DNA from: a virus
Reading direction: 5' to 3' (one strand)
Virus record (IMG/VR): IMGVR_UViG_3300009840_000002
Coordinates: 1-22,837 of that record
Length of the DNA stretch: 22,837 bases
How positions within the stretch are numbered: the first letter of the stretch is position 1; every line of letters begins with the position of its first letter. The notes beneath the pieces are model-generated. The model was given only the letters and a program-made list of their open reading frames with translations. It was not told the DNA's origin and made no database searches. The translations under genes and the position numbers were made by a program. Shown here piece after piece: positions 4,971 to 21,931 of the stretch.

Positions 4971-7865
4971 ATGTCACGCGGCTTCGGCATGGTGGTGGAC
5001 GAGGACAAGCAGGTCGTGCGCCAGACCGGCGTCGGTCAGGGCTTGATCCGCGGGTTCAACACGAACCTGCCGACCGCGGATAACAGCCAGCTCATCAATG
5101 CCGGCAAGTCATTGCAAGGCGTCGCCGACGACCTGTTGCGCCTGACCGGCACCGAGGCGGCCGAGAAGGCGGCGCGGGAAACCAAGATCGGCCAGGACGC
5201 CGACGGCAATTACATCCGGCCCGAGACCCCGATGATGGGCCTCGCGCTGCGCGGTCACTTCAACAAGATCGTCGATCAGTCGTTCATCGAGCGTGTTCAC
5301 CAGGACCTCTCGGCCGACCTCAACCAGATCCAGACGGACCACTTTCAGGATCCCCAGGTGGCCGGGCCCAAGATGACCCAGGCCGTGACGGCGCGGCTCA
5401 ACAAGGTCGGCGACGAGGGGTTGAAGAACCAGCTCGGCATGCTCGCCGGCCGTGACGTCAACGAGCGCATGCGCTCGATCTCGACGACCCGCGCGCACAT
5501 GGATTTCCGCAACGAGGTCGAGCACCTCGACTACACCATGAAGTCGCATACCGACCGCTACTTCTCGGCGCTGACCGTCGGCGATCCCGAGAAGGCGGCC
5601 GAGGAGATGGAGCTCATCCGCAACGCGCAAGGCCGCAAGATCGGCATGGGCGTTGACGGTCCTTTCGCGATGGAGAAGGTCACGGACGACCTGCGCCAGA
5701 TGGGAGCGGCGGCGAAGATCTACCGGGTGCTGGAGCAGAAGCTCGAGGACGGCACGCTGACCGAACAGCACTTCCGGCTCTATTCGGCCTGGCTCGCCGG
5801 CGGCGGCTCCGACGAGGACAAGCTCGATGGCGTGACCAAGCGCGGGATCTTTGAGCAGATGCCCTCCGAGAAGGTGAGGGATCACCTGCGCTCCAAGCTC
5901 GGGGCGATCTATGAGCGGTACAAGGTGGCGGCCGGCGCACGGGCCACGGCCAACGCCGACGAGGTCCTCGAGAGCCACTGGAAGACCGTCGGCCGCGGCC
6001 AGCTTCCGCGCGGCGCCAGCGAGGATGACTTTCAGGGCTGGTATCAGCGCCGGTTCGGCAGCGAGCTGACCCCCGAGGGGATCCAGAAGGCCTTCGCGGT
6101 TTCGGGCGACGTGCCCCAGACCATGATCAAGAAGGCGTTCGAGGGCGTGCGCGTCGGTGGCGCCGAGAAGGCCAAGCAGCTGCTGCAGGTCTACAACACG
6201 CTGGCCACGCTGCCGACCCCGGACGGCGGCACGACCTCCGCGAAGCTCGCCGGCATCAACGATAGCGATGCGGCCTTCATGTACCACTTCGCGCAAGGCC
6301 GGACGACCGACGGCCTCAACGACAAGGAAGCCGCCGAGAAGGCGGAGGCCATGGTCGCGCGGGGCGAGAAGGAGTGGAAGGAGAACAGCCAGCCGCTGGC
6401 GATTATCCGCGAGGCGCTCGGCCGCGATCCCACGATCACCGCCTATTCGGGCGGCGTCACCAATGCCGCCGTGAAGGCCCGCGTGTTCGCCAAGGCCAAG
6501 GAGCTCGACGACGGCGGCGCCCAGGACCTCGACCCGCGCGCCGAGACGGTGTTTCTCGGCGCCGTCGCGCGTCGGGTGGCGCTCGGGCAGCCGCTCGAGC
6601 AGGCCACGGCCGGCGCGCTGGCGACGTTTCACAAGACCTGGACCTACGACGAAAGTCTGTACAGCGGCGGCGCGAAGGGCCGCTGGGTCCCGAACGGGAC
6701 CTCGGTGCCGAAGATCCCCGACGTGACGGGCCGGCGTGCTGACACCGACGATTACATGAAGCCGATCGTCGCCGCGCTGTTGCGCGCCAAGCCCGACCGG
6801 ACGCAGCCCAAGGACGAGGAAGCCGCGGTCAAGGATTACGCCCGCTGGATCCCCAAGGTGCAGCAGGGCAACTACGACAAGGACGGCAAGCTCGTGAAGG
6901 GCTCCGGCATCGACATCAGCGATGGCGAGTGGGGCAAGAACATCAAGGCGGTCCCGGCGACCGAGGGCGGCAACGCCGGCAACCCGACCTTTAACCTGAT
7001 TTACACATTCCCCGACGGCCGCGGGCTCGTGCTGCGCGACCACGAGCTCAAGCCGGTGAAGATCCAGCTTGGCGAGGAAGCGCGGGTTCAGAGCAAGGCG
7101 GCCGTGGACTACCTCAACAAGCCGGGCGGCTACGAGGCAGACCTTCGGCGGGCCCAGACCGCGGGAACCAAGTGGGGCGTGTCGGACATCCCCGACCTGC
7201 TGGCGGGGCGCACGCCTGGAACCTACGGCAAGCCGGCCCCTGGGGGGGTGGTTCTCGACCGGGTCATCGTGCGCGAGGATCCGGCCGCGATCAAGGATCC
7301 CGGGATCGTCTCGAAGGGCGGGACCGGCGGCCGGCGCCGCGGCTTTGCGCCCGACCGGGTCAACGATGGCTCGCCGGAGCTGTTCGGCCCCTCGGCCGAC
7401 CTCGAGGCCGACGACGCCCGCTTCGTGGTGCAGAACTTCGCGATCGACGAGCGCCGCAAGCAGCAGGTGCTGAACATGCACCCGGGCTTCGCCAAGGCGG
7501 TGGCGGCCGGCGTGAGGGACATGCCGCCCGAGGTGCGCCGGGTGTTCCGGGTCGTCTCGGCGCACCGCAGCCACGAGCTGCAGCAGCACCTCTGGGACAA
7601 CGAGGTCGCCGAGCGCGGCTCGTGGGCGGCCGCCCGCGCGGCCGGGATGGTCGCGCAGCCGGGCCGCTCGAACCACGAGCGCGGTCAGGCGATCGACATC
7701 GACCGGCGCTCACCCGGCGCCTCGGCGGCGATCGAGTGGTGGCACGCCAATGCCGAGAAGTACGGCCTGTTTTTTCCGATGAAGCGCGAGCCCTGGCACA
7801 TGGAGCCGATCCGCAAGGTGCCGGTCGCGTCGAACGACCCGGACGGGGACGACCTCTATGGATGA
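4971..7865 (+). CDS. Internal virion protein (gp15-like position) with C-terminal M15 peptidase
   Basis: This 964-aa protein takes the place of T7 gp15. Residues 1-840 are mostly charged and helical with no family I recognise. The last ~120 residues are an M15 (VanY / L-Ala-D-Glu peptidase type) zinc peptidase. It shows 'VVSAHRSHELQQHLW', then SNHERGQAIDID with zinc ligands H902 and D909, then EPWH with E940 as likely catalytic base and H943 as third ligand. All three ligands are present, so the domain looks active. I infer that it cuts peptidoglycan crosslinks or stem peptides during DNA entry, as a virion-associated lysin. AAGGA at 4957-4961, overlapping the upstream stop, serves ATG 4971. 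The 3' end overlaps the next gene by 8 bases. Confidence 0.82.
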   Translation: MSRGFGMVVDEDKQVVRQTGVGQGLIRGFNTNLPTADNSQLINAGKSLQGVADDLLRLTGTEAAEKAARETKIGQDADGNYIRPETPMMGLALRGHFNKIVDQSFIERVHQDLSADLNQIQTDHFQDPQVAGPKMTQAVTARLNKVGDEGLKNQLGMLAGRDVNERMRSISTTRAHMDFRNEVEHLDYTMKSHTDRYFSALTVGDPEKAAEEMELIRNAQGRKIGMGVDGPFAMEKVTDDLRQMGAAAKIYRVLEQKLEDGTLTEQHFRLYSAWLAGGGSDEDKLDGVTKRGIFEQMPSEKVRDHLRSKLGAIYERYKVAAGARATANADEVLESHWKTVGRGQLPRGASEDDFQGWYQRRFGSELTPEGIQKAFAVSGDVPQTMIKKAFEGVRVGGAEKAKQLLQVYNTLATLPTPDGGTTSAKLAGINDSDAAFMYHFAQGRTTDGLNDKEAAEKAEAMVARGEKEWKENSQPLAIIREALGRDPTITAYSGGVTNAAVKARVFAKAKELDDGGAQDLDPRAETVFLGAVARRVALGQPLEQATAGALATFHKTWTYDESLYSGGAKGRWVPNGTSVPKIPDVTGRRADTDDYMKPIVAALLRAKPDRTQPKDEEAAVKDYARWIPKVQQGNYDKDGKLVKGSGIDISDGEWGKNIKAVPATEGGNAGNPTFNLIYTFPDGRGLVLRDHELKPVKIQLGEEARVQSKAAVDYLNKPGGYEADLRRAQTAGTKWGVSDIPDLLAGRTPGTYGKPAPGGVVLDRVIVREDPAAIKDPGIVSKGGTGGRRRGFAPDRVNDGSPELFGPSADLEADDARFVVQNFAIDERRKQQVLNMHPGFAKAVAAGVRDMPPEVRRVFRVVSAHRSHELQQHLWDNEVAERGSWAAARAAGMVAQPGRSNHERGQAIDIDRRSPGASAAIEWWHANAEKYGLFFPMKREPWHMEPIRKVPVASNDPDGDDLYG

Positions 7866-10800
7866 TCTCGACCTCGGCCCGCTGCCGCTTCCGACCACGG
7901 AGGATCCAGGCCCGAACCCGTTCAAGCAGCTGCCCGACGAGGGGCGGCGCTCGCTCGTCGGCACGCCGGTCGGCGCCATCGGGACGGCGGACCCTGGCCA
8001 TGTCCAGCTGATCACCGACAACTACCACCTGACCGGGATCATGCAGGGGATCGGCCACCTCGGCGAGACCCTGATGCCGGCTGAGCCCGGCTACGATCCC
8101 CACCAGGATCCGCAGCTCGACGGCGACATGCGCCGGATGATGCCGTGGTTCATCGACAGCAAGAGCCACCAGGAGACGGCGGTCCGCAAGGCGCGCTTCG
8201 AGGAGAACTCCGCCCGCGAGGCGCGGGTGTCGGAGCACGGCTACTGGTATCACGCGCTGATCGGCGGGGCGTTGACCCCGGACAACGCGATCCCGGGCGT
8301 CGGCGCCGTCGGTAAGGGTCTCGTGAAAGGCGCGGCGCAGGGCGCGGCCTGGGGCTTCGGGCTCGGCCTCGGCGACGAGGCGATCCGGCTGCGCACCTCG
8401 AACGTCGGCGCCGACGACGTCGACCTGACCTCACTCATGTATGGCACCGCCGCCGGCGCGCTGTTGGGCGGGCTCGGCGGCGGCCTTACGGCTCTGAAGC
8501 GGGATCCCCACGCACAGGTGGGCGCATTCGCGCGGGCCATGGCGGAGGACCATGTCCGGCTCGACGAGCTCGCCACCCGGCCGGGGTTCGATCCGAACAA
8601 GATCGGCTACGAAGCTCTGCCCACGGCTGACCCGCGTGACGTGCGGGCGAAGCCAGTGTTTTTAGAGCTGCAAGAGTTGATGGGGATTGGCGGAGTGTGG
8701 AACCCGGTGGGCTCCGCACTGGGGTGGCTGGTCCAGACGGGCCATCGCGCGATCTCTGATTGGGCGACCCTAGTGGGCGGCGACTTCGCCTTTCTCCTTG
8801 GGGAGAATGCGAAAGGTCAGAGCGCAGGTGCATCCGTTCACCTCCTTGCGGGACGGTGGCGGGCCCTCGGCGCGGATGCGATCCGAGGGATCGACAACGA
8901 TTACGCGACCTACTTGGGATCCCCCGACGCGCTGGCGCCCGTCGGCATGAACCTTCGGGTTCAAGGAGCTAAGCTTGGCGATGCCGTGCGGTCAGCCCGG
9001 GGAAAGACCCGGAGCGATGGTAGGCTTTCCGTCGACGAATACCAGCGGGCTGTGACCCGAGCCCGCATGCAAGGCGGCGTCACGGTCGACACCGAATGGC
9101 TACGGGACAAGAGCCCGGCGGCTGTCAAAGCCGTCAACGACGGCGCCCAAAAGCTGGGGAAATTTCTCGATCAGGCGCGTGAGGAGGCGATCAAGCACGG
9201 TTACTTCGGCCCCGACAGCCTGAAGCAGAAGACCACCAAGCTGCTCGATCGCCACGACAAGAACGCCAAGGAGATCGCGGCGCTCGAGGCCAAGCGGACG
9301 ACCGCCACGGGCGGCACGACGACCACGACCACGACGCCGAACAGCACCACGACGACCACGATCGGGGCCACGCCGGGCACGCTCACCCCCAACGAGGCGG
9401 CGCGGCTGACGTTGCTCAAGCAGCACCAGGCCGAGCTCGAGAAGGAGATCCCCGAGGCAACCTTCAAAGATCGTCGCTACGACACGCTGCGGAGCTCGTA
9501 CACGGCGATGATGGGTGAAGTGGTCCGGCTACGCGGGTTGGTGAAGGACGCGCCCTACGAGGGCCGCAAGGGCTTCTACGACGCGATCCGCCTCCAGATC
9601 GAACAGGCTCGCCCGCTCCACGAGGAGCTGAGGGCGCTCGAGGAAGAGGGGATTTGGGGCTCGCGGCCGTCGCGCGCCCGCTTCGAGATGCAGCCGGTCC
9701 AGACCGGGTTCGCGGCGCCGGATGTTGCGGCCAACCGCAACGTCCCGGGCGAGGGCATGCCGGTCCCGGCCAACGATCAGCCGGGTCTGCCGCCCGGCAT
9801 GGCGCCCCCGGCCAACGACAGGCCGGATGTTTCACGTGAAACATCGGGTGTATCGGCGGGTGATACTGCCGGCGATACCACCATCGAGGTGCAGGGCCAG
9901 GCCGTGAAGGCCTATGCCACCACCGAGCCGGCCTTCAATCCGCCCGCCAACGACAGCGGCGTGACCTTCATGCCGTTCGAGGGGCAGGCCCGCGAGCCGG
10001 TCATCCAAGGCGGCACGAAGGACGAGGCGCTGAACGCCGTCGCCGACCGCGCCCCGAGCTTCGAGGCCTATCGCGACGACGCCCTCAAAGCGGTGGCCGA
10101 GGCGTTCGACAACGGCGGCTTCTCGCCGGAGATGTACGATCGCCTCAAGTATGGCATCGAGATCAAGCTGCCCGCGGACCTCGACGACATCCCGCTCGAC
10201 GAGAGGCACTTCATCGAGAACAAGTTGCTGATCATCGGGATGGACAATTCCGGTCCGGCGATGACGAAGATCAAGCTCGAGGTGATGCTGCGCGAAGCCG
10301 CCGCCAAGCGCATCGAGGCGATCGTCGTGAAGGCGCTCGAGGGCCGCGAGGTCGTGCCGGGCTACGAGACCTTCAAGACCGGCCAGCCCGTGGTGGCCGA
10401 CACCTTCCACGGCACGCGCCGGGTTCTGAAGGACGGCGAGTTCAAGCTCGAGATGTCGGGCACGGGGGCCGGCGGCGGCGACACCGACGGCGTGATCTAC
10501 TCGGCGATGAACCCCGAGACCACGAACGATTACGCGGGCTACCACGGCCCGAGCTCGACGCTCGCCGAGAAGCCGACCAAGACCTCGAGCTATGAGGGCC
10601 TCGACGACGACGTGCTGTGGGCTGGCGACAAGCCAGCCTCGAAAACCTCATGGGAGACGATCGCCGATCCTGACGGCGTCCTGGGCCCCGAGGAGATCGA
10701 CGACGCCTATCAGCAGTACAAGGACGGCTGGGCCGAGAGCAAAGCGCTCGCCGAGCTCGACAAGAAAATCGAGGCGGGCATCGCCAAGCTCGAGGCGGAC

Positions 10801-13269
10801 AAGAAAATCGAGGCGATCTTCGCCGAGCTCGAAGCGCTCGGCGGCAAGACGTCCGACCAGGAGCCGTTCGAACCGGCGCCTGTGACCTTCGGCAAGAAGA
10901 AGCCGACCGGGCCGCTCGATGCTAAGGCGCCGTTCACCTATGACGAGTGGCTGGCGCAGTACCCGCATATCAAGAAGGACAGCGTCGAGGCCATCGAGGC
11001 CATCGAGGGCTATCACATCTACACCGCCGAGTGGACGCCCGCGTCGGCTGGTGCCGACGCAGTGCCGGAGCGCGCGCCGAACGTCGTCATGTCGCGCGTG
11101 CGCATGAACAACCCGCTCGTCTACGACAACGTCGAGGCACTGGGCTGGAGCCCGCAGCGCAACCGCGACCTGATCGCCCGCGCCAGAGCCGAGGGCCGCG
11201 ACGGCGTGATCATCCTCAACACCCGCGACGGCGGTTCGACCGACCACATCTTCATCACCTTCTCGCCGGACCAGATGCGCTGGCGCTTCGACCCCGAGGC
11301 GCACGCGCGCAAGAAGCTGCACGCCAATTTCGTGGAGCGGCTCGGCGAGCCGGTGCCGGTCGGCCGCCCGGACAACGACAACTACCTGCCGCTCGACGAC
11401 GAGACCGAGCTGCCGCGCCGCGCCGATGGCTCGCGCACCGACCGGCTCAGCGACGCCGAGATGGTGAAGCTCGAAGCCAACAACGACAACCGCAAGGGCG
11501 CCGGCAACCCGGCCGACTACAAGGGACCGGAGAGCGATCCGAACTATGTGCCCCGGCTGTGGGACAAGGAGGCGATCCGCGCCAACCCAGACGCCTTGCG
11601 CGAGGCGTTCAGGAAGTGGCACGCCGAGCAGGGCGTCGATCATTTTTCCGACGACGACTGGGCCAAGATCCTCGACAACATCCTGTCCGGCCGCGGCACC
11701 GCGTCGGCCGACGGCACGCCGATCGGCGGCTCGTTCCGCATCGGCCGCAAGCTCGACATCCCGAACGAGCGCGTCACCGACTTCATCGAGGACCGCGCGC
11801 AGGACCTGCTGCACTTCTACTCCGGCCGCTTCGGGCCGGGCTTCGAGATGCACCGCATGCTCGGCTCGCGCGACGGCCGGCTGTCGATGTACGACGCGCA
11901 GCTGCAGGCGATCAGCGAGCGCCAGGGCACCGAGCAGGAGCTGTTGAACTTCGCGGCCCAGACCCGCAAGCGGCAGGAGTTCCTGCGCGACCAGGTCCTC
12001 GGCGACCTCGCCTCGAAGGACGAGCTGACCTACACCAAGGTCGGGGTCGAGGCCATCAAGGCGTGGGTCATGACGACCTCGATGGGCAAGGTGCTGTTCT
12101 CGCAGATCCCCGAGATCGCGCGGCCGATGATGGTGCACGGCTTCACGACCAATTATCAGTTCATGACCGAGACCGTGATCGGCAACATGGCGGGCTTCAA
12201 GCAGGAGCTCGGCCACCTGCTGCCGGTGGTCGGCGAGGTGCTCGACACCGTGCTCGGCATGGCGGGCTATCGCATGTTCGAGATGGGCGACCTCACCAGC
12301 CTGCCCGGCAGCCGCGGCGCGGAGCGGGCGCGCGCCGTGCTCAAGCCGTTCCTCGATTTCGCCAACGGCCCCTACAACATTTTGAATTTAATGGGCCCGA
12401 TCACCGACGTGATGAAGGGCTACACCATGGTGCTGTCTTCGCACCTGTTGATCGAGGACATCCAGCGGGTGGCGCGCGGGACCGCCGGCAAGAAGACGAT
12501 CGCGCGGCTCGGCGGCGTCGGCCTCAACAACGAGACCGTGGCTGCCCTCGCGGCCATGCCGTTCGACAAGTCGGGACGCTTGAACCTATCCAACTTCGAC
12601 GCATGGCCGGAGGGCAACGAGGTCCTGAAGCAGCGCTTCGCGGCAGCGATCCGCGGTGAGGTGAACCGGGTCATCAACACGCCGGGTCCCTCGACCAAGA
12701 GCGCCATTCAGCAGGGATACCTGGACTACGCGGAAGGGCGGCGGCAGCACGCGCTGCTCACCATCCCGTTCCAGTTCCTGAGCTGGGGTCTGGCGGCCTC
12801 GCAGAAGGTGACGCTGTCCGCGCTGCAGGGGCGTGACGCCTCGATGTTCTCGGGCGCCATGGGCATGGTCGGGCTGACCATCCTGTCGCAGTACCTCAAG
12901 ACCAGCGACGCCGCCTGGGAGCGGATGCCCTGGGAGGAGAAGGTTCTGTCGGGGGTCGAGCAGTCGGGGGTGCTCGGGATCTGGGGCAACCTCAACGGCA
13001 TGCTCGAGCGCGGCACCATGGGCCAGCTCGGGATGCGCCCGAGCCTCGGGCTGCCGCCGCAGTTCGGCGATCCCGAGAACACCGACCCGCTCGAGACCAT
13101 CGGCGGCGCCGGCACCACCAAGCTGATCGACGCCTGGCGCTACTTCGCGGATCCGACCCTGCCGGACTGGCGCAAGGCGGCGATCGGCCGGCGGGCCATC
13201 CCGCTCAACGACATCTGGCTGTGGGGTGGCCTGGTCAAGGACGCGCAGCGCGCCTGGAACCAGCCCTAA
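7858..13269 (+). CDS. Giant internal virion/ejection protein (gp16-like position) with ART-like region
   Basis: This 1803-aa protein should form part of the ejected channel. The N-terminal part has Gly/Ala-rich hydrophobic segments (residues ~138-175 and ~195-217) suited to membrane insertion. Residues 481-505 are a Thr-rich tract and ~620-700 a Pro/Asn-rich disordered linker that holds a parS palindrome. Residues ~846-1150 resemble an ART-PolyVal ADP-ribosyltransferase: 'TFHGT' (H851), 'GVIYSAMNPETTNDYAGY' (Y881), 'MNNPLVYDN' (~1083-1091), 'GRDGVIILN' and 'FITFSPDQM'. A charged ~120-residue insertion splits this region. From ~1230 on, 'NYVPRLW' and 'FSQIPEIARPMMVHG' belong to the conserved C-terminal part of such phage proteins. 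No lytic transglycosylase motif was found. Catalysis is unproven because the third active-site residue is not clear. Codon use changes at residues ~255-440. Confidence 0.78.
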   Translation: MDDLDLGPLPLPTTEDPGPNPFKQLPDEGRRSLVGTPVGAIGTADPGHVQLITDNYHLTGIMQGIGHLGETLMPAEPGYDPHQDPQLDGDMRRMMPWFIDSKSHQETAVRKARFEENSAREARVSEHGYWYHALIGGALTPDNAIPGVGAVGKGLVKGAAQGAAWGFGLGLGDEAIRLRTSNVGADDVDLTSLMYGTAAGALLGGLGGGLTALKRDPHAQVGAFARAMAEDHVRLDELATRPGFDPNKIGYEALPTADPRDVRAKPVFLELQELMGIGGVWNPVGSALGWLVQTGHRAISDWATLVGGDFAFLLGENAKGQSAGASVHLLAGRWRALGADAIRGIDNDYATYLGSPDALAPVGMNLRVQGAKLGDAVRSARGKTRSDGRLSVDEYQRAVTRARMQGGVTVDTEWLRDKSPAAVKAVNDGAQKLGKFLDQAREEAIKHGYFGPDSLKQKTTKLLDRHDKNAKEIAALEAKRTTATGGTTTTTTTPNSTTTTTIGATPGTLTPNEAARLTLLKQHQAELEKEIPEATFKDRRYDTLRSSYTAMMGEVVRLRGLVKDAPYEGRKGFYDAIRLQIEQARPLHEELRALEEEGIWGSRPSRARFEMQPVQTGFAAPDVAANRNVPGEGMPVPANDQPGLPPGMAPPANDRPDVSRETSGVSAGDTAGDTTIEVQGQAVKAYATTEPAFNPPANDSGVTFMPFEGQAREPVIQGGTKDEALNAVADRAPSFEAYRDDALKAVAEAFDNGGFSPEMYDRLKYGIEIKLPADLDDIPLDERHFIENKLLIIGMDNSGPAMTKIKLEVMLREAAAKRIEAIVVKALEGREVVPGYETFKTGQPVVADTFHGTRRVLKDGEFKLEMSGTGAGGGDTDGVIYSAMNPETTNDYAGYHGPSSTLAEKPTKTSSYEGLDDDVLWAGDKPASKTSWETIADPDGVLGPEEIDDAYQQYKDGWAESKALAELDKKIEAGIAKLEADKKIEAIFAELEALGGKTSDQEPFEPAPVTFGKKKPTGPLDAKAPFTYDEWLAQYPHIKKDSVEAIEAIEGYHIYTAEWTPASAGADAVPERAPNVVMSRVRMNNPLVYDNVEALGWSPQRNRDLIARARAEGRDGVIILNTRDGGSTDHIFITFSPDQMRWRFDPEAHARKKLHANFVERLGEPVPVGRPDNDNYLPLDDETELPRRADGSRTDRLSDAEMVKLEANNDNRKGAGNPADYKGPESDPNYVPRLWDKEAIRANPDALREAFRKWHAEQGVDHFSDDDWAKILDNILSGRGTASADGTPIGGSFRIGRKLDIPNERVTDFIEDRAQDLLHFYSGRFGPGFEMHRMLGSRDGRLSMYDAQLQAISERQGTEQELLNFAAQTRKRQEFLRDQVLGDLASKDELTYTKVGVEAIKAWVMTTSMGKVLFSQIPEIARPMMVHGFTTNYQFMTETVIGNMAGFKQELGHLLPVVGEVLDTVLGMAGYRMFEMGDLTSLPGSRGAERARAVLKPFLDFANGPYNILNLMGPITDVMKGYTMVLSSHLLIEDIQRVARGTAGKKTIARLGGVGLNNETVAALAAMPFDKSGRLNLSNFDAWPEGNEVLKQRFAAAIRGEVNRVINTPGPSTKSAIQQGYLDYAEGRRQHALLTIPFQFLSWGLAASQKVTLSALQGRDASMFSGAMGMVGLTILSQYLKTSDAAWERMPWEEKVLSGVEQSGVLGIWGNLNGMLERGTMGQLGMRPSLGLPPQFGDPENTDPLETIGGAGTTKLIDAWRYFADPTLPDWRKAAIGRRAIPLNDIWLWGGLVKDAQRAWNQP
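9826..9845. promoter_or_regulatory. Canonical parS centromere-like site inside the ejection-protein gene
   Basis: GATGTTTCACGTGAAACATC is a perfect 20-bp palindrome whose inner 16 bases (9828-9843) equal the bacterial chromosomal parS consensus bound by ParB/Spo0J. It encodes D657-V-S-R-E-T662 of the 1803-aa protein. All six codons (GAT GTT TCA CGT GAA ACA) end in A or T in a gene where most codons end in G or C, and the surrounding peptide is a Pro/Asn/Gly-rich linker with little constraint. Nucleotide-level selection is the simplest reading. ParB binding itself is inferred. Confidence 0.8.
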
Positions 13270-15898: not shown

Positions 15899-16174
15899 TC
15901 AGGGCTCCCCGAAGCGCTGGATCCGGCGGCACGCCGGGCAGGCGAGCGAGCCGCGAAACCCCTGCCGGATGTGCGACCAGCTCCACGTCGTGACGTGGCG
16001 GCAGGTCTGGAACTCGATGCGATGGTAGCCCGAGTACCCCGGCCAGTGCGGGTCGAGGGGCGTGAGCCCGTGCGCGGCCAGGAAGGCGTCGGCACGGGCG
16101 GGTCGTGGCCGCGGCGGGCGGGGGATGTACCCCCGCCACATCTTCGGCCAAGCCGGGTTACGGTCCTGGCTCAT
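15899..16174 (-). CDS. Hypothetical protein with possible zinc-binding cysteines
   Basis: This 91-aa basic, Pro- and Trp-rich protein starts MSQDRNPAWPKMWRGYIPRP. The start is ATG 16172-16174, in an ATGA overlap with the DUF932 gene, with GGGGAG just upstream. An open frame continuing further upstream is a shadow of DUF932. The C-terminal half contains H51, C58, H59 and a CPAC pair (C79, C82), which could bind zinc as a single knuckle. I do not recognise the family. It is the last gene of the leftward module and ends next to the terminator stem. Confidence 0.6.
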   Translation of the reverse strand: MSQDRNPAWPKMWRGYIPRPPRPRPARADAFLAAHGLTPLDPHWPGYSGYHRIEFQTCRHVTTWSWSHIRQGFRGSLACPACRRIQRFGEP

Positions 16175-17043
16175 AGCTCCCCTGTTTTGAAGGCTGCCAT
16201 CCGGTCGGCCAGAACCCAGAGCGCCCGGTTGAGGCGCACGTCCTGGTCGATGTTGTTGATCGGGCGGGTGGAGACGGAGCGGATCCGATTGTGGGCATCG
16301 CGCGCCTGGCCGTGCTGGCCGCCGCGGATGACGTTCTCCTGGATCCGGTTGAAGGTGCTCCACAGCGACGGCCCCATGTCGTGGGCGCGGCGCGTGCGCA
16401 GCAGGTCGTCGGGCTTGATGGCCTGACGCAGGGTGTCGGAGGCGCCCTCGAAGCGCAGCGTGTGCGCGGCCTCGGCGAGCACCAGGTCCTCGCCCTTCTT
16501 GAGCTCGATCGCGCGGAACTGCTCGACGCGGTTCATCACCCGCTCGGTCTCTTTGACCACGGACCAGGTGCCCTCGATCACCGTATCCGTGATGTTGCCG
16601 GTATGGCCGACACGTACATCATCAACGAGGTTGTCGGCGACCACCATCCCGTTGAGGCAGATGAGCCGAAACAGCCCTGCCATGATGCGATACGAAGACG
16701 TGCCGTCGTGTGAGTTGATGAGCACGATCTCCGGACGGGTATCACCCACCTGACGCATCTCCTGCGTTCCGTGCCGGAACCGGATGAGGTGCTTGGTGAA
16801 GTTCTCTTTGCCCTCGACACGGGATCTCCCCTGCTTGGCGACCATCGGCTCGAAGCCCTGCTCGCGCAGCGCGTTCACGATGCCGATCGTCGGGACGTAG
16901 GTGTAGCGCCGGCTCCGGCTCTCGTGCTTGTCGGGTGCGAAGATCGACGGCGCGAGGCGGTAGAGCTGGTCGTCGGTGAGCGGCTCGGTGCCGAGCCGTT
17001 GCGTCAGCGCGCGGCCGAGGCCACGCTGGATGTGCATGTTCAT
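16171..17043 (-). CDS. DUF932 domain protein
   Basis: This 290-aa protein belongs to DUF932 (phage/plasmid-like protein, TIGR03299 relatives). It shows 'LAPSIFAPDKHESRSRRYTYVPT' near the N-terminus, then 'FTKHLIRFRHG', 'PEIVLINSHDGTSSYRIMAGLFRLICLNGMVVAD' and 'RVGHTG', all typical of the family. DUF932 genes recur in phages, plasmids and integrative elements beside ssb and ParB-like genes, as here. The biochemical role is unknown. Start ATG 17043 has a weak GTGAGA upstream; a second ATG two codons later is possible. A 90-bp spacer with a hairpin separates it from ssb. Confidence 0.85.
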   Translation of the reverse strand: MNMHIQRGLGRALTQRLGTEPLTDDQLYRLAPSIFAPDKHESRSRRYTYVPTIGIVNALREQGFEPMVAKQGRSRVEGKENFTKHLIRFRHGTQEMRQVGDTRPEIVLINSHDGTSSYRIMAGLFRLICLNGMVVADNLVDDVRVGHTGNITDTVIEGTWSVVKETERVMNRVEQFRAIELKKGEDLVLAEAAHTLRFEGASDTLRQAIKPDDLLRTRRAHDMGPSLWSTFNRIQENVIRGGQHGQARDAHNRIRSVSTRPINNIDQDVRLNRALWVLADRMAAFKTGEL

Positions 17044-17133: not shown

Positions 17134-17634
17134 CTAGAAGGGGATCTCGTCGTCGAGGTCGAAGCCGTACTTGTCCTTCTCGGGCTTCTTCTCGGCGGGC
17201 TCGCCGCCCTTCTTCACGGTGCCCTTGACGGAAGTGCGTCCGTCGCGGGCGCCCGCGTAGTCGTCGCGTCCGGCGCTATCACGGTTGTCGTCCTTCGATC
17301 CAAGCAGCTTGATCTCGCCGTTGAATTTCTGGATCACGATCTCCGTGGTGTAGCGCGTGTTGCCCTCCTTATCCTCCCATTTTCTCGTTTGGATTTTTCC
17401 CTCGACGTAAACCTCTTTGCCTTTGGTGAGGTACTGCTCGGCGATCTCCCCCAATTTGTCATTGAAGATGACCACGTTGTGCCATTCGGTCCGCTCCTTG
17501 CGCTCGCCGCTGGCATCCCGCCATCGTTCGGAGGTGGCGATCGAGAAGGAAACCACTCGATCGCCGTTGTTGAGGTGCCGGACCTCGGGGTCTTTGCCGA
17601 GCCGGCCGATCAGAGTTGCCTTGTTCAGTGTCAT
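17134..17634 (-). CDS. ssb: Single-stranded DNA-binding protein
   Basis: This 166-aa protein is a standard bacterial-type SSB. The OB-fold occupies residues ~1-112 with 'LNKATLIGRLGKDPEVRHLNNGDRVVSFSIATSERW', 'ERTEWHNVVIFNDKLGEIAEQYL', 'GKEVYVEGKIQTRKWEDKEG' and 'TTEIVIQKFNGEIKLL'. A disordered linker rich in Asp, Gly and Lys follows. The acidic tip DLDDEIPF is the conserved tail that recruits repair and replication proteins. It coats single-stranded DNA during phage replication and recombination and is expected to work with the ERF annealing protein and YqaJ nuclease of this module. Its start overlaps the upstream gene by ATGA, implying coupled translation. Confidence 0.95.
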   Translation of the reverse strand: MTLNKATLIGRLGKDPEVRHLNNGDRVVSFSIATSERWRDASGERKERTEWHNVVIFNDKLGEIAEQYLTKGKEVYVEGKIQTRKWEDKEGNTRYTTEIVIQKFNGEIKLLGSKDDNRDSAGRDDYAGARDGRTSVKGTVKKGGEPAEKKPEKDKYGFDLDDEIPF

Positions 17635-17891
17635 AGCTTGTTCTCATGGCTCGGTCGGATGGGTCCTCCTGCCTTGGCGTACTCGACGGCGTCGCTGAGA
17701 CGATCCTCGAGCGGAAGGTTGGAGGCATTGAAGCGCTCGCAGAAGAGCTGCGCACGCTGGTCGCCGTCCTCGCCCTCGAACACGATGGTCGTGAACTGAC
17801 CGTCGAATGCGATGCGGAAGTGGACGTAGGCTTGTCGCGAGACGGGGCCGAAATAGATCTCGCGGCGAAAGGTGGCTTTGGTCTCTGCCAT
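17631..17891 (-). CDS. Hypothetical protein upstream of ssb
   Basis: The 86-aa product begins MAETKATFRREIYFGPVSRQ. It appears as alternating beta strands (AYVHFRIAFDGQFTTIVFEGE) followed by a helical, acidic C-terminus (RLSDAVEYAKAGG). I recognise no family, membrane helix or metal motif. AAGGAC precedes the ATG by a good distance. The four-base overlap with ssb suggests that it is translated together with SSB and may act in the same replication or recombination step; that is inference. Confidence 0.7.
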   Translation of the reverse strand: MAETKATFRREIYFGPVSRQAYVHFRIAFDGQFTTIVFEGEDGDQRAQLFCERFNASNLPLEDRLSDAVEYAKAGGPIRPSHENKL

Positions 17892-17943: not shown

Positions 17944-18036
17944 TCAGCGGTGGCTGATGCGGTTGATGACGATCCACGCGATCGTCATGCCGATCACGCC
18001 GAGGGCGAACGACGGGAAGTCGAACGCCCAGGTCAT
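17944..18036 (-). CDS. 30-aa single-pass membrane microprotein
   Basis: The ATG at 18034-18036 overlaps the ParB-like gene stop in an ATGA junction and opens a 30-codon frame: MTWAFDFPSFALGVIGMTIA then WIVINRISHR. A hydrophobic helix of about 18 residues ends in a basic tail, so the predicted topology is N-out, C-in. There is no separate Shine-Dalgarno site, so translation would depend on coupling to the ParB-like gene. It lies below usual gene-calling limits. The function is unknown; the tight link could tether or modulate the upstream product at the membrane. Confidence 0.6.
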   Translation of the reverse strand: MTWAFDFPSFALGVIGMTIAWIVINRISHR

Positions 18037-19442
18037 GCGTCGTGGCCGTTGGGCTTGCGCTTCTCGTCGACCCGCTTGGCGATGGCCGCGACCGCCTCCT
18101 GAGACGGCACGCCCTGGTCGGCGAACTCCTTCACGACGTCGTACTGGTCGGCCGTGATCCCGATTGTGAGCGCCCCGTCTTCCGTCTTGAGCACCACGTC
18201 AGGGCTCTCGGTGACGACGGCCGCCACCTCGGCTCCCTCCTCGAAGTACGAGGGTGGCGGAATGAGCGGGACCTCCTGTTGATTTGTGCTCCAATCAACA
18301 GAACCCGACGCCGGGTCGAGAAACCCAACAGGCGGATTGAGGAGCTGGTCTCGGCCGGCCTCGATCCACTGGATCACCAGCAGGACCGCCTCCTCGTGAC
18401 CGTAGCCCTCATCGACGAGCTGCTGCGCGACCTTCTCGGCTACTCCCTTGACCCGATCCCTCTGCTCCCAGGTCATCGGCTTGTCCTGCCAGCATTGGCG
18501 ATTGAGCTCGGCGCCGTAGCCGAATGAGATCACCACGTCCGTGTTGGCCCGTATCTTGGGATCGGTCGGCACGCTGTAGACCTGCGCGTGCGTGACATAG
18601 GTCGGCTTCTCGGGGTCTTGGTTCCACCACACCGTGCGCCAGCCTTCGGCCTTCACCTCGTCGTGCAGCCCGTCCATGCGCTCGTCGTAGAGCTTCTCGA
18701 TCAGGCCTGGGTTGGTGAGGTACTTCTGATCGCCGAACAGGTCCTGCTCGACCCGGCCGCCGGCGTCGAGGTAGGCCCGCATGCCGACGATCTGCACCTT
18801 GCTGTTGGCCTCGGTCAGCCGCTCGTCCTTGTCGAGGTACTCGCGCAGGTCCCAGGCATCGAGCGGCTCGAGGGCTCGTTCGTTGGGGTCCTGGTCCGCA
18901 CTGAACACCTCGTCGAACGCCTCGGCCTGCTTGCCCGGCTTCAGCTTGGCGAGCTTCTTGGCGATCTCGTCGTCGATCCAGCCGTTGCGCCAAGCGTCCA
19001 GCCATGCGGGGAGGATCGAGCCCAGCGCCAGGCGCTGCTTGACCTGCCGCTCGGTGAGGCTGAAGTGCTTGCCGATCTTCTTGAGGCTCACCCCGTCGAG
19101 TCGCAGCTTGGCGAACGCCCGGTACTCGTCGACCGGGTGCATGGCCTGACGCATGATGTTCTCGGTCAGCGCCAGCTCGGTGCCGGTCTTGACCCGGACG
19201 ACCGTCGCCGGGATCGAGCGGCATTCCAGCTTCTGCATGGCCGCGAAGCGGCGGTGGCCGGCGACGATGGTGTAGAGCTCACGGCCGTCGTCGTGCCCGG
19301 TCAGCCGGACGGTGATCGGATTGATCAGACCGAGCGCCTCGATATTGGCGGCGAGCTCGTCGATCCCCTCGAGGTCTCCGCTGCGTGGGTTGTCGGGATC
19401 CGGCAAGATCTGGTCGGGTGCCAGTTCGTGAATGATGGGCAT
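18033..19442 (-). CDS. ParB/Spo0J-like partition or DNA-binding protein
   Basis: This 469-aa protein has a ParB N-terminal domain. It shows 'DNPR' (17-20), the C-motif AGHRRFAAMQKL (61-72) and the P-motif ENIMRQ (94-99) followed by 'MHPVDEYRAFAKL'. The two motifs form the CTP pocket of ParB clamps, so CTP binding is plausible. A helix-turn-helix follows (VSLKKIGKHFSLTERQVKQR, ~118-137). The rest (~150-469) is long, acidic and unfamiliar, with no clear ParB dimerisation tail. No parA gene is visible. Proteins like this are common in phages and mobile elements beside ssb and DUF932 genes and need not act in partition. AAGGA lies 8 bases before ATG 19442. The window also carries a parS palindrome at 9826-9845. 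Confidence 0.87.
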   Translation of the reverse strand: MPIIHELAPDQILPDPDNPRSGDLEGIDELAANIEALGLINPITVRLTGHDDGRELYTIVAGHRRFAAMQKLECRSIPATVVRVKTGTELALTENIMRQAMHPVDEYRAFAKLRLDGVSLKKIGKHFSLTERQVKQRLALGSILPAWLDAWRNGWIDDEIAKKLAKLKPGKQAEAFDEVFSADQDPNERALEPLDAWDLREYLDKDERLTEANSKVQIVGMRAYLDAGGRVEQDLFGDQKYLTNPGLIEKLYDERMDGLHDEVKAEGWRTVWWNQDPEKPTYVTHAQVYSVPTDPKIRANTDVVISFGYGAELNRQCWQDKPMTWEQRDRVKGVAEKVAQQLVDEGYGHEEAVLLVIQWIEAGRDQLLNPPVGFLDPASGSVDWSTNQQEVPLIPPPSYFEEGAEVAAVVTESPDVVLKTEDGALTIGITADQYDVVKEFADQGVPSQEAVAAIAKRVDEKRKPNGHDA

Positions 19443-19479: not shown

Positions 19480-19493
19480 CCCCCCCGGGGGGG
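19480..19493 (-). terminator. C7G7 palindrome between ERF and ParB-like genes
   Basis: Seven C followed by seven G (19480-19493) lie directly after the ERF stop codon (19495-19497) in leftward transcripts and 38 bases before the ParB-like start. A hairpin would need an unpaired loop taken from the stem, and a nearby GGGG (19474-19477) offers alternative pairing. It could reduce read-through from ERF into the ParB-like gene, but there is no T-run. Confidence 0.45.
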
Positions 19494-19494
19494 C

Positions 19495-20193
19495 TTACTC
19501 GGCCTGTTCGGCCGGAGCTCGGGTGCGCTTGGTCGTCTCGGCCTCGGCTTGGTCAGCCTCGGCCTTCTGCGTCGCGGCCTTGTCCAAGGCCTCGGCCTTC
19601 TGGCGGCAGGCGGCGAGGTACTTGTGCGCCGTCGCCTTATCGAGCAGCCCGGCCGGGACCGCCGCCTTGATCTGCGTGTGCAGGGTGTTCAGGACCTTGA
19701 TGTCGGTGGCGTCCTCGATGCCGAGCTCGATCGAGAGCTTCGTCTCCTTGACCTCGGGGCTTTCGTAGATGGTCTCCTGATCCTGGTCGGGATCGTCGCC
19801 GCTCTCGAGGCCGAGCGCCTTGAGGAGCGCGTACTTCACGGCATAGGAGATCGCCTTGCCGGGGCCCTTGTCCTGCTCGTCGATGCCGTAGCCCATCGAG
19901 GCCACGTCGATGTAATCGGAGCGGTCGTCGATGTTCTCGAAGCGCACCGTCATGGTGCATTGCGTCCTGTTGCCCGACTGCTCGACCTTGATCTCGCGCG
20001 GGTAGTAGATCACGCCCTCGTTGACGAGCGCCGGCCGGACCTTTGCGGTGACGGCATCGTGCGACACGATGCTGTATTTCATGCCCTGCTTTTTTTCTTT
20101 CTCGACATACGTGACCGTGAACATCACGGCATTCAGCCGTTGCGCGATGTTGCGCTTCGGTGCCCCCTCAGTGGGGGCTTTTGGGTTCGCCAT
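19495..20193 (-). CDS. erf: ERF-family single-strand annealing recombinase
   Basis: This 232-aa protein matches the ERF/Sak-type annealing proteins (PF04404). The core spans residues ~20-140 with 'VSHDAVTAKVRPALVNEGVIYYP', 'MTVRFENIDDRSDYIDVASMGYGIDEQDKGPGKAISYAVKYALLKALGL' and the acidic 'SGDDPDQDQET'. The C-terminus is an Ala/Glu/Lys-rich helix. It should anneal complementary single strands and pair with the YqaJ exonuclease and SSB in the same module. AAGGAG stands eight bases before ATG 20193. The first codons overlap the upstream gene by 26 bases and include a GCCCCC/GGGGGC stem at codons 6-11. Confidence 0.9.
   Translation of the reverse strand: MANPKAPTEGAPKRNIAQRLNAVMFTVTYVEKEKKQGMKYSIVSHDAVTAKVRPALVNEGVIYYPREIKVEQSGNRTQCTMTVRFENIDDRSDYIDVASMGYGIDEQDKGPGKAISYAVKYALLKALGLESGDDPDQDQETIYESPEVKETKLSIELGIEDATDIKVLNTLHTQIKAAVPAGLLDKATAHKYLAACRQKAEALDKAATQKAEADQAEAETTKRTRAPAEQAE
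20162..20182 (+). terminator. Antisense intrinsic-terminator-like hairpin inside the ERF start
   Basis: GCCCCC (20162-20167), loop TCAGT and GGGGGC (20173-20178) are followed on the plus strand by TTTT. In that orientation it looks like an intrinsic terminator, but both genes here run leftward. It lies in ERF codons 6-11, and the stop codon of the 64-aa gene falls in the loop, so in the sense mRNA it may affect coupling between these two genes. Confidence 0.4.
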
Positions 20194-20820: not shown

Positions 20821-21122
20821 CAGTGTTTCTCCCTTCGGTTGATCAGGTCCTCGCGCATGGCGTCGAGGTGCGGGCGATTGGCGCGCACGTGCGCGCATGT
20901 CACCTCGACGAGGTTGTCGAGGAGCGGGAAGCAGGCCTCGCGCATCAGCCGGCGGGCGAGCTCCAGTTCACCGTCGGCGTCCTGCGCAAAGGCGTGGGCG
21001 AGCAGGTAGCTCAAGGCGTACTCGACGGTCTGGCTGGTCTCTCCATTCATGATCGGCGAGAGCTTGCGGGCGAGCGCTTCGCCCGAGGTGAACATCTTCA
21101 TGGTCTCATGCTGCAGGTTCAT
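20820..21122 (-). CDS. Hypothetical protein downstream of the exonuclease
   Basis: The 100-aa product begins MNLQHETMKMFTSGEALARK. The start is ATG 21120-21122 in an ATGA overlap with the exonuclease stop. It is helical (AYLLAHAFAQ-like segments, ELELARRLMREACFPLLDNLVEVTCAHV) and ends 'LINRREKH'. I see no membrane helix, metal motif or familiar domain. Tight coupling to the exonuclease and to the next gene makes a shared pathway likely. Confidence 0.7.
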   Translation of the reverse strand: MNLQHETMKMFTSGEALARKLSPIMNGETSQTVEYALSYLLAHAFAQDADGELELARRLMREACFPLLDNLVEVTCAHVRANRPHLDAMREDLINRREKH

Positions 21123-21931
21123 AGGCTGTCGTGCTCCTTCACGGTCAGGCGGTTGCGCTTGTCGCGGACGATTTGCACGCCGGCACCGAAGCAGCGCCGC
21201 CGGTCCTCGGGGATCAGCGCCTTGAGCTCCTGGCACACCTCGTAGAAGCGTTCGGCCTGGGGCTTCAGCGTGCGGTACTCGTCGCACAGGGCGGGCCAGC
21301 GATTGTCACGGCTCATGTCGAGGTCGGACTTGTAGCCACCGACCAGGATCTCCGAGACGTGCTCGGCGGCGGCGTTGATCTTCGCCGTCGGCAAGAGCTC
21401 GGGCTCGATGTCCTGCGTGACGTGCCACCAGAACGTCTTCTCGAGGTCGATCAGCTTCTCGATGTAGTCGTCGTGCCGCTGGATCTGGGTGGTCATCGGC
21501 TCGTCGTTGCCGGGGATGACGCTGAACCAGCACCAGTCGGAGCCCGTGACGGCGAGCTGGTGCTGCAGCTGCGGCATGTAGTAGTCGGCGCTCTCGCGCA
21601 GCGAGGCGTTCGAGTGCGAGTGCTTGGCCTCGAGGTGGGTGTCGTTGGTGAAGTCCCAGCCATCGAGGGTGGCGTAGATGAACGGGTGTGTGGGGTGGTG
21701 CTGCCGGACCCAGTCGCCGCCGGTCGCCACCTGCAGCTCGCGCTTCTCGCCGACCCACTTGATGTGAAACTCTTCGGTGATCTGGCCGAGCCGGACCCGG
21801 AAGATTTTGGAGAGGTCGGCCGGCTCCTGTCGTTTTGTTTTCTCCCGCCATAGCTGGTGCCAATCGCCGCTCATGATCAGCCGGGCGTCGCTGGCGCCGA
21901 TGCCCTGGGTACGATCGAACTCTTCACTCAC
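21119..21931 (-). CDS. YqaJ-type viral recombinase / alkaline exonuclease
   Basis: This 270-aa protein fits the YqaJ (PF09588) branch of the PD-(D/E)xK nucleases related to lambda exonuclease. It opens 'QGIGASDARLIMSGDW' and continues 'RVRLGQITEEFHIKWV' (E53/E54). It then shows the catalytic set D90 ('YATLDGW') and E101-A-K103 ('HLEAKHSHSN'), followed by 'YYMPQLQHQLAVTGSDWCWFSVIPGNDEP'. It should resect double-stranded ends 5' to 3' to give substrate for the ERF annealing protein. The start is GTG 21929-21931 with AGGAGG five bases upstream; the nearer ATG meets a stop at once. It lies one base after the stop of the 84-aa gene. Confidence 0.88.
   Translation of the reverse strand: MSEEFDRTQGIGASDARLIMSGDWHQLWREKTKRQEPADLSKIFRVRLGQITEEFHIKWVGEKRELQVATGGDWVRQHHPTHPFIYATLDGWDFTNDTHLEAKHSHSNASLRESADYYMPQLQHQLAVTGSDWCWFSVIPGNDEPMTTQIQRHDDYIEKLIDLEKTFWWHVTQDIEPELLPTAKINAAAEHVSEILVGGYKSDLDMSRDNRWPALCDEYRTLKPQAERFYEVCQELKALIPEDRRRCFGAGVQIVRDKRNRLTVKEHDSL

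Follow-up and report, generated by a model that had tools for sequence, protein, structure and literature searches.

A phage ParB-like protein of plasmid leading-region type and a parS palindrome, probably separate features of one podophage-type fragment

Does a phage fragment that bears both a ParB-like gene and a parS palindrome hold a ParB-parS unit of its own, or two features with different partners? A sequence-only reading of this DNA favored the first answer. The window, meaning the whole stretch of DNA analyzed here, is a 22,837-bp IMG/VR virus record and represents a podophage-type fragment, encoding a Phage_capsid_2 major capsid protein and a phrog_376 tail protein recognized by Pfam and PHROG. 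Its nearest named relative is Pelagibacter phage EXVC031P Hodr, with a capsid identity of 49%, and its relatives are podophages of the lytic type whose genomes are small. Two contigs, L129 and L137, are near-identical (96-100% protein identity) and belong to the same phage, ending before the ParB gene and parS. A 964-aa protein at window 4971-7865 carries a VanY D-Ala-D-Ala carboxypeptidase domain at its C-terminus and is probably a virion-associated peptidoglycan hydrolase.

The parS palindrome that the sequence-only reading had pointed out is genuine, with the exact consensus at 9828-9843 enclosed in the longest perfect palindrome of the window. The site and the gene around it are as follows.

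9826-9845, palindromic, no strand assigned: perfect 20-bp palindrome GATGTTTCACGTGAAACATC, whose core 9828-9843 is the exact 16-bp consensus parS (codon test; a separate feature)
7858-13269, plus strand: 1803-aa virion-type gene holding parS, which is translated as VSRET within a Pro/Asn-rich linker (ORF; phrog_16310 at the C-terminus)

The encoded protein exceeds the open frames of its relatives by several hundred residues, many of those frames being truncated where the locus ends. The site falls around residue 657, in the unaligned middle of the protein (window 9826-12000), and an FHGT-containing stretch in the middle of the protein is reminiscent of polyvalent effector domains.

An accidental parS, be it a chance match, a VSRET peptide motif, or recently captured host DNA without function, would be consistent with a single copy placed within a coding linker. 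It agrees poorly with the chance expectation of 0.03 sites at up to three mismatches and with the codons used. The site is written GTT TCA CGT GAA ACA, a five-codon run with a codon-frequency product of 3.6e-7, lower than for any other of the 6,170 runs (third-position GC 0.906), which would be unexpected were the peptide alone important. So unlikely a run argues for a constraint on the DNA or a recent arrival, and the test does not tell these apart.

Fifty relatives of the window phage were gathered by their capsid and tail proteins, without use of ParB. None of the 50 has a ParB_N domain, and nine carry a parS-like site at two mismatches or fewer. In the less AT-rich members these sites have one mismatch and lie in two unrelated genes, and in the AT-rich members they lie in a scaffold-like gene; that the group has them in three different genes counts against an accident. 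The AT-rich members themselves lean the other way, as their imperfect sites keep the peptide VSxET and not the palindrome centre; these sites may be peptide-driven, DNA constraint being inseparable there from peptide conservation. Compared with 840 palindromes of equal composition, parS came second for near-matches in relatives (7 loci; mean 0.03), and a chance origin of the matches in relatives was rejected on this rank. The top-ranked palindrome has the appearance of a single conserved coding site, because most of its loci have it upstream of the scaffold gene with much the same spacing.

Beyond this group, the exact parS 16-mer is found in at least 120 viral contigs, compared with 33 for a control palindrome with changed central bases and one for a reversed control, in a sample whose contigs are not independent and may include some host contamination. 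Two to five exact copies occur in 17 of the 120 contigs and in none of the 33 controls (Fisher p=0.024; contigs not independent), examples being L045:10535-11462, L018:2657-3444, L011:5525-5566, and L064:276-910. Five exact copies each are kept by L045 and L018 amid immediate flanks that are little alike, a further point against an accident. A portal protein is among the products of L045, a contig whose record lacks a ParB_N domain. ParB_N is likewise absent from 46 of 50 parS-bearing viral records, and eight of ten checked parS loci encode phage-family proteins, mostly portal, tape-measure, terminase, and DNA polymerase. Cultured phages seldom carry the site. Among 15 named phages a parS within one mismatch was present in one, Pelagibacter phage HTVC027P (MN698241.1, 16412-16427, CGTTTCACGTGAAACA), which has no ParB_N, and an exact one in none; parS is therefore sporadic, and the proposal of a wide occurrence in cultured phages was dropped. 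Most named relatives lack the site, as an accident would predict. Taken with the chance expectation, the codon run, the three genes, and the multicopy contigs, an accidental origin of the window's parS is judged unlikely.

The protein presents a different set of features, all on the minus strand.

18033-19442, minus strand: orphan ParB-like protein, 469 aa, ATG start (ORF; PF02195 E=8.6e-13; phrog_7783 E=8.3e-33)
19155-19433, minus strand: ParB_N (ParB-CTPase fold) domain, PF02195, residues 5-96 (Pfam; fold match to Noc, Spo0J, KorB, and ParB-CTP structures)
19248-19259, minus strand: C-motif GHRR, residues 62-65, intact
19149-19163, minus strand: P-motif ENIMR, residues 94-98, intact
19020-19085, minus strand: helix-turn-helix (HTH), residues 120-141, with the parS-reading residues replaced (structure model; residue mapping)
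18627-18857, minus strand: family-specific post-HTH domain, residues 196-272, with invariant DLF (18735-18743) and GW (alignment with plasmid and phage relatives)

The two motifs and the HTH, named from the sequence alone, are borne out by the PF02195 match and the model. The motifs are also conserved among the homologues. In the C-motif the glycine is kept in 58/58, the first arginine in 54/58, and the second in 55/58, and in the P-motif asparagine is kept in 53/58 and arginine in 52/58. The AlphaFold2 model, built from 59 sequences, is of high confidence across most of the N-terminal half, including HTH helices 120-126 and 131-141, and of low confidence past about residue 270. Its best PDB matches are Noc (E=3e-10), Thermus Spo0J, KorB (E=6e-9), and CTP-bound ParB, the last being the comparison that the sequence-only reading had proposed. 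The motifs do not reveal whether CTP is the nucleotide, because some members of the ParB fold use ATP or GTP, and the choice is not predictable from sequence (PMC12704722).

Several proteins of phages and plasmids have been described as ParB-like DNases (reviewed in PMC5512222), the neighboring genes process DNA, and sulfiredoxins are weaker structural matches to the model, so the protein might instead belong to the ParB/sulfiredoxin superfamily as an NTP-controlled nuclease or nickase and process DNA for the recombination module. Such an activity is improbable here, given that the closest sequence and structure matches are clamp-type ParB, Noc, and KorB proteins with an HTH and that Pfam and PHROG scans recognized no nuclease domain. 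PADLOC returned a single match in the window, a weak one to a methyltransferase-associated ParB.

The best PHROG of the protein is phrog_7783, matched over residues 27-290, and the F-plasmid ParB2/YubM matches the same PHROG along its whole length (E=1.2e-257); the ORF between ssb and psiB in F is parB2 in related plasmids (PMC8406263). Homologues are found in at least 5,000 plasmid records, and a single-protein search of viral contigs with the window protein yielded no close relative. The match ends at profile position 288, the shared C-terminal region of phrog_7783 (profile positions about 290-634) is absent, and the last 180 residues do not align with the family and are poorly modelled; the protein is therefore a divergent, shortened relative of ParB2. 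The earlier remark that its C-terminus is unlike chromosomal ParB was right, with the amendment that residues to about 290 resemble plasmid ParB2-type proteins. Judged from these alignments, the protein belongs with the orphan ParBs of plasmid leading regions (ParB2/YubM) and not with chromosome-type ParB, and it adds to an already known orphan ParB family. The function of that family is unproven, because a plasmid deleted for parB2 showed neither a transfer nor an SOS phenotype (PMC8406263).

The neighborhood shows the same affinity, with the following genes around the ParB-like gene.

21119-21931, minus strand: YqaJ/RecE-like exonuclease (PF09588 E=5.2e-12; phrog_434)
19495-20193, minus strand: ERF single-strand annealing recombinase (PF04404 E=2.1e-18)
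17631-17891, minus strand: small ORF of 86 aa that separates the SSB and ParB-like genes, without a family match in Pfam or PHROG
17134-17634, minus strand: single-strand DNA-binding protein, SSB (PF00436 E=3.6e-38)
16171-17043, minus strand: DUF932 protein, phrog_12094 (Pfam; the same PHROG as the F-plasmid leading-region DUF932)

Read along the minus strand, the order is YqaJ exonuclease, ERF, ParB-like protein, small ORF, SSB, and DUF932. The F plasmid leading region contains SSB, ParB2, and DUF932; the phage module thus has three gene families in common with it, together with an annealing recombinase and an exonuclease. Related arrangements occur on two viral contigs, one (L300) with SSB, a weak DUF932 match, a ParB-like gene, and YqaJ, and the other (L302) with SSB, a ParB-like gene, and YqaJ. 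Among 79 ParB-like homologue loci, SSB is a neighbor in 11 and DUF932 in 10. Just upstream of the ParB-like start lies a 14-bp palindrome, CCCCCCCGGGGGGG (window 19480-19493), and a similar GC-rich stretch, GTAAGCCCC, lies upstream of the next gene; the palindrome is possibly a leader, a terminator, or a candidate operator of the ParB-like protein.

Recombination neighbors and the lack of an adjacent parA had both been read from the sequence, and both descriptions hold, with SSB, DUF932, ERF, and YqaJ adjoining the gene and ParA absent from the 22.8-kb fragment by a Pfam scan of the main genes and by phmmer with three ParA/SopA queries. The protein itself has no ParA-binding motif, and none of 17 viral records bearing a ParB-like homologue has a ParA over the cut-off. 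The phage might still be extrachromosomally temperate, a phage-plasmid partitioned by the host ParABS through parS or by its own ParA beyond the window, seeing that the window is an incomplete genome fragment, that homologues are widespread on plasmids, and that ParA is nearby in 15 of the 79 homologue loci. This lifestyle appears quite improbable, as no integrase, repressor, replication initiator, or ParA was recognized in the window and the relatives are of the lytic type.

Whether the protein could read parS was judged from its HTH. In Caulobacter ParB, Jalal and colleagues reported that Q162, G170, K171, S172, R173, N178, G201, and R204 contact parS (PMC7383237), and the specificity of ParB versus Noc is set by positions 173, 179, 184, and 201 (PMC7383237). 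By alignment, Q162, G170, K171, S172, R173, N178, T179, A184, G201, and R204 of the Caulobacter protein become L, S, L, T, E, Q, R, S, E, and K in the window protein, so that the C. crescentus identity is kept at none of the ten parS-contacting or discriminating positions. Across the homologues, position 173, an arginine in parS readers, is glutamate in 38/58, and position 179 is arginine in 52/58, which suggests that the family has its own DNA-recognition surface. Single substitutions in the HTH are no proof, because H. pylori Spo0J, known from a solved complex with parS (4umk), likewise has other residues in place of G170 and R204, with a lysine at the R204 position there too; for the same reason the non-parS argument leans on all ten positions jointly.

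The distribution of gene and site agrees with this. A parS within one mismatch lies near a ParB-like homologue in only one of the 79 loci, and among the 17 whole viral records with a homologue three have a site at one mismatch and none an exact one, so a link between the gene and parS appears unlikely. In the window 8 kb separates the two, which belong to different transcription units. A sliding clamp formed by the phage ParB, loaded at the phage parS with CTP and active on phage DNA during replication, would account for both features on one fragment, the intact nucleotide motifs, the fold match to CTP-bound ParB, and the three records, but with all ten reading positions replaced, relatives that carry parS-like sites without a ParB_N gene, the single locus of 79, and the separation in the window it is very improbable. 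The sequence-only reading accordingly stands in its parts, namely the ParB fold, the intact nucleotide pocket, the absence of ParA from view, the recombination neighbors, and the real parS, and falls where it joined protein and palindrome into a ParB-parS unit.

The best explanation, with a probability of roughly 0.6, is that the window holds two separate things, an orphan ParB2-type protein within a recombination module, acting at a non-parS operator, and a parS loaded by the host ParB. They are treated as separate because the parS contacts are lost, because sites occur in relatives that have no ParB_N (9/50 and 0/50, respectively), and because 46/50 parS-bearing records lack the domain. Under this explanation, the protein would bind a nucleotide, bind DNA at an operator different from parS, and, together with SSB, ERF, and the exonuclease, act on phage DNA in early replication and recombination as a clamp or regulator switched by the nucleotide. 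The chromosomal ParB of the presumed host would load at the parS in the virion gene, and, on the comparisons made here, the window parS is more likely a landing site for host ParB than a target of the phage ParB-like protein.

A wider generalization, put forward tentatively and at somewhat less than even odds, is that diverse ParB-less phages keep one to several exact parS sites by selection, thereby loading the host ParB clamp, and possibly SMC, on their DNA so that the genome is positioned, compacted, or protected. The window would then be one example, with its own ParB-like protein at a different site. An incomplete literature search found no direct precedent for a natural phage parS or for host ParB recruitment, and met parS on phage DNA only in engineered uses or in phage-plasmids with their own ParABS. 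In lambda with an engineered parS, imaged with CFP-ParB, ParB assembles on the phage DNA and infection still proceeds (PMC13190303).

The ParB-like protein connects phage recombination modules with the plasmid leading-region set of SSB, ParB2, and DUF932, and the phage version provides another route to ParB2 function. The separate parS raises the testable question of whether phages borrow the host chromosome-segregation clamp, and parS without a phage ParB is a more novel lead than the ParB-like protein.

Comparison with known systems places both features. Like F-plasmid ParB2/YubM, the phage protein is an orphan composed of ParB_N, an HTH, and a post-HTH DLF/GW domain, encoded beside ssb and near a DUF932 gene of the same PHROG; it differs in length (469 aa versus 652) and in its unalignable C-terminal 180 residues. 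Compared with the plasmid ssb-parB2-psiB-psiA cluster (PMC8406263), the phage lacks psiB and psiA and has ERF and YqaJ genes in their place. With chromosomal ParB/Spo0J of ParABS it shares the ParB-CTPase fold, the GxRR and ENxxR motifs, and the HTH, whereas ParA and the ParA-binding motif are missing, the parS-reading residues are replaced, and the C-terminal region is unrelated. KorB of plasmid RK2 and Noc have the same fold and are ParB-family CTP clamps used outside segregation; like them, the phage protein would be a DNA-binding member of the family other than a chromosome partition factor. At two mismatches or fewer, neither the KorB operator TTTAGCSGCTAAA nor the Noc-binding site has a match in the window, and the Noc specificity residues QKKR are replaced by E, R, S, and E. 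The parS site, in turn, is comparable to the engineered lambda-parS/CFP-ParB system (PMC13190303) in that both place parS on phage DNA, with the difference that the parS here is natural and the host ParB is its presumed partner.
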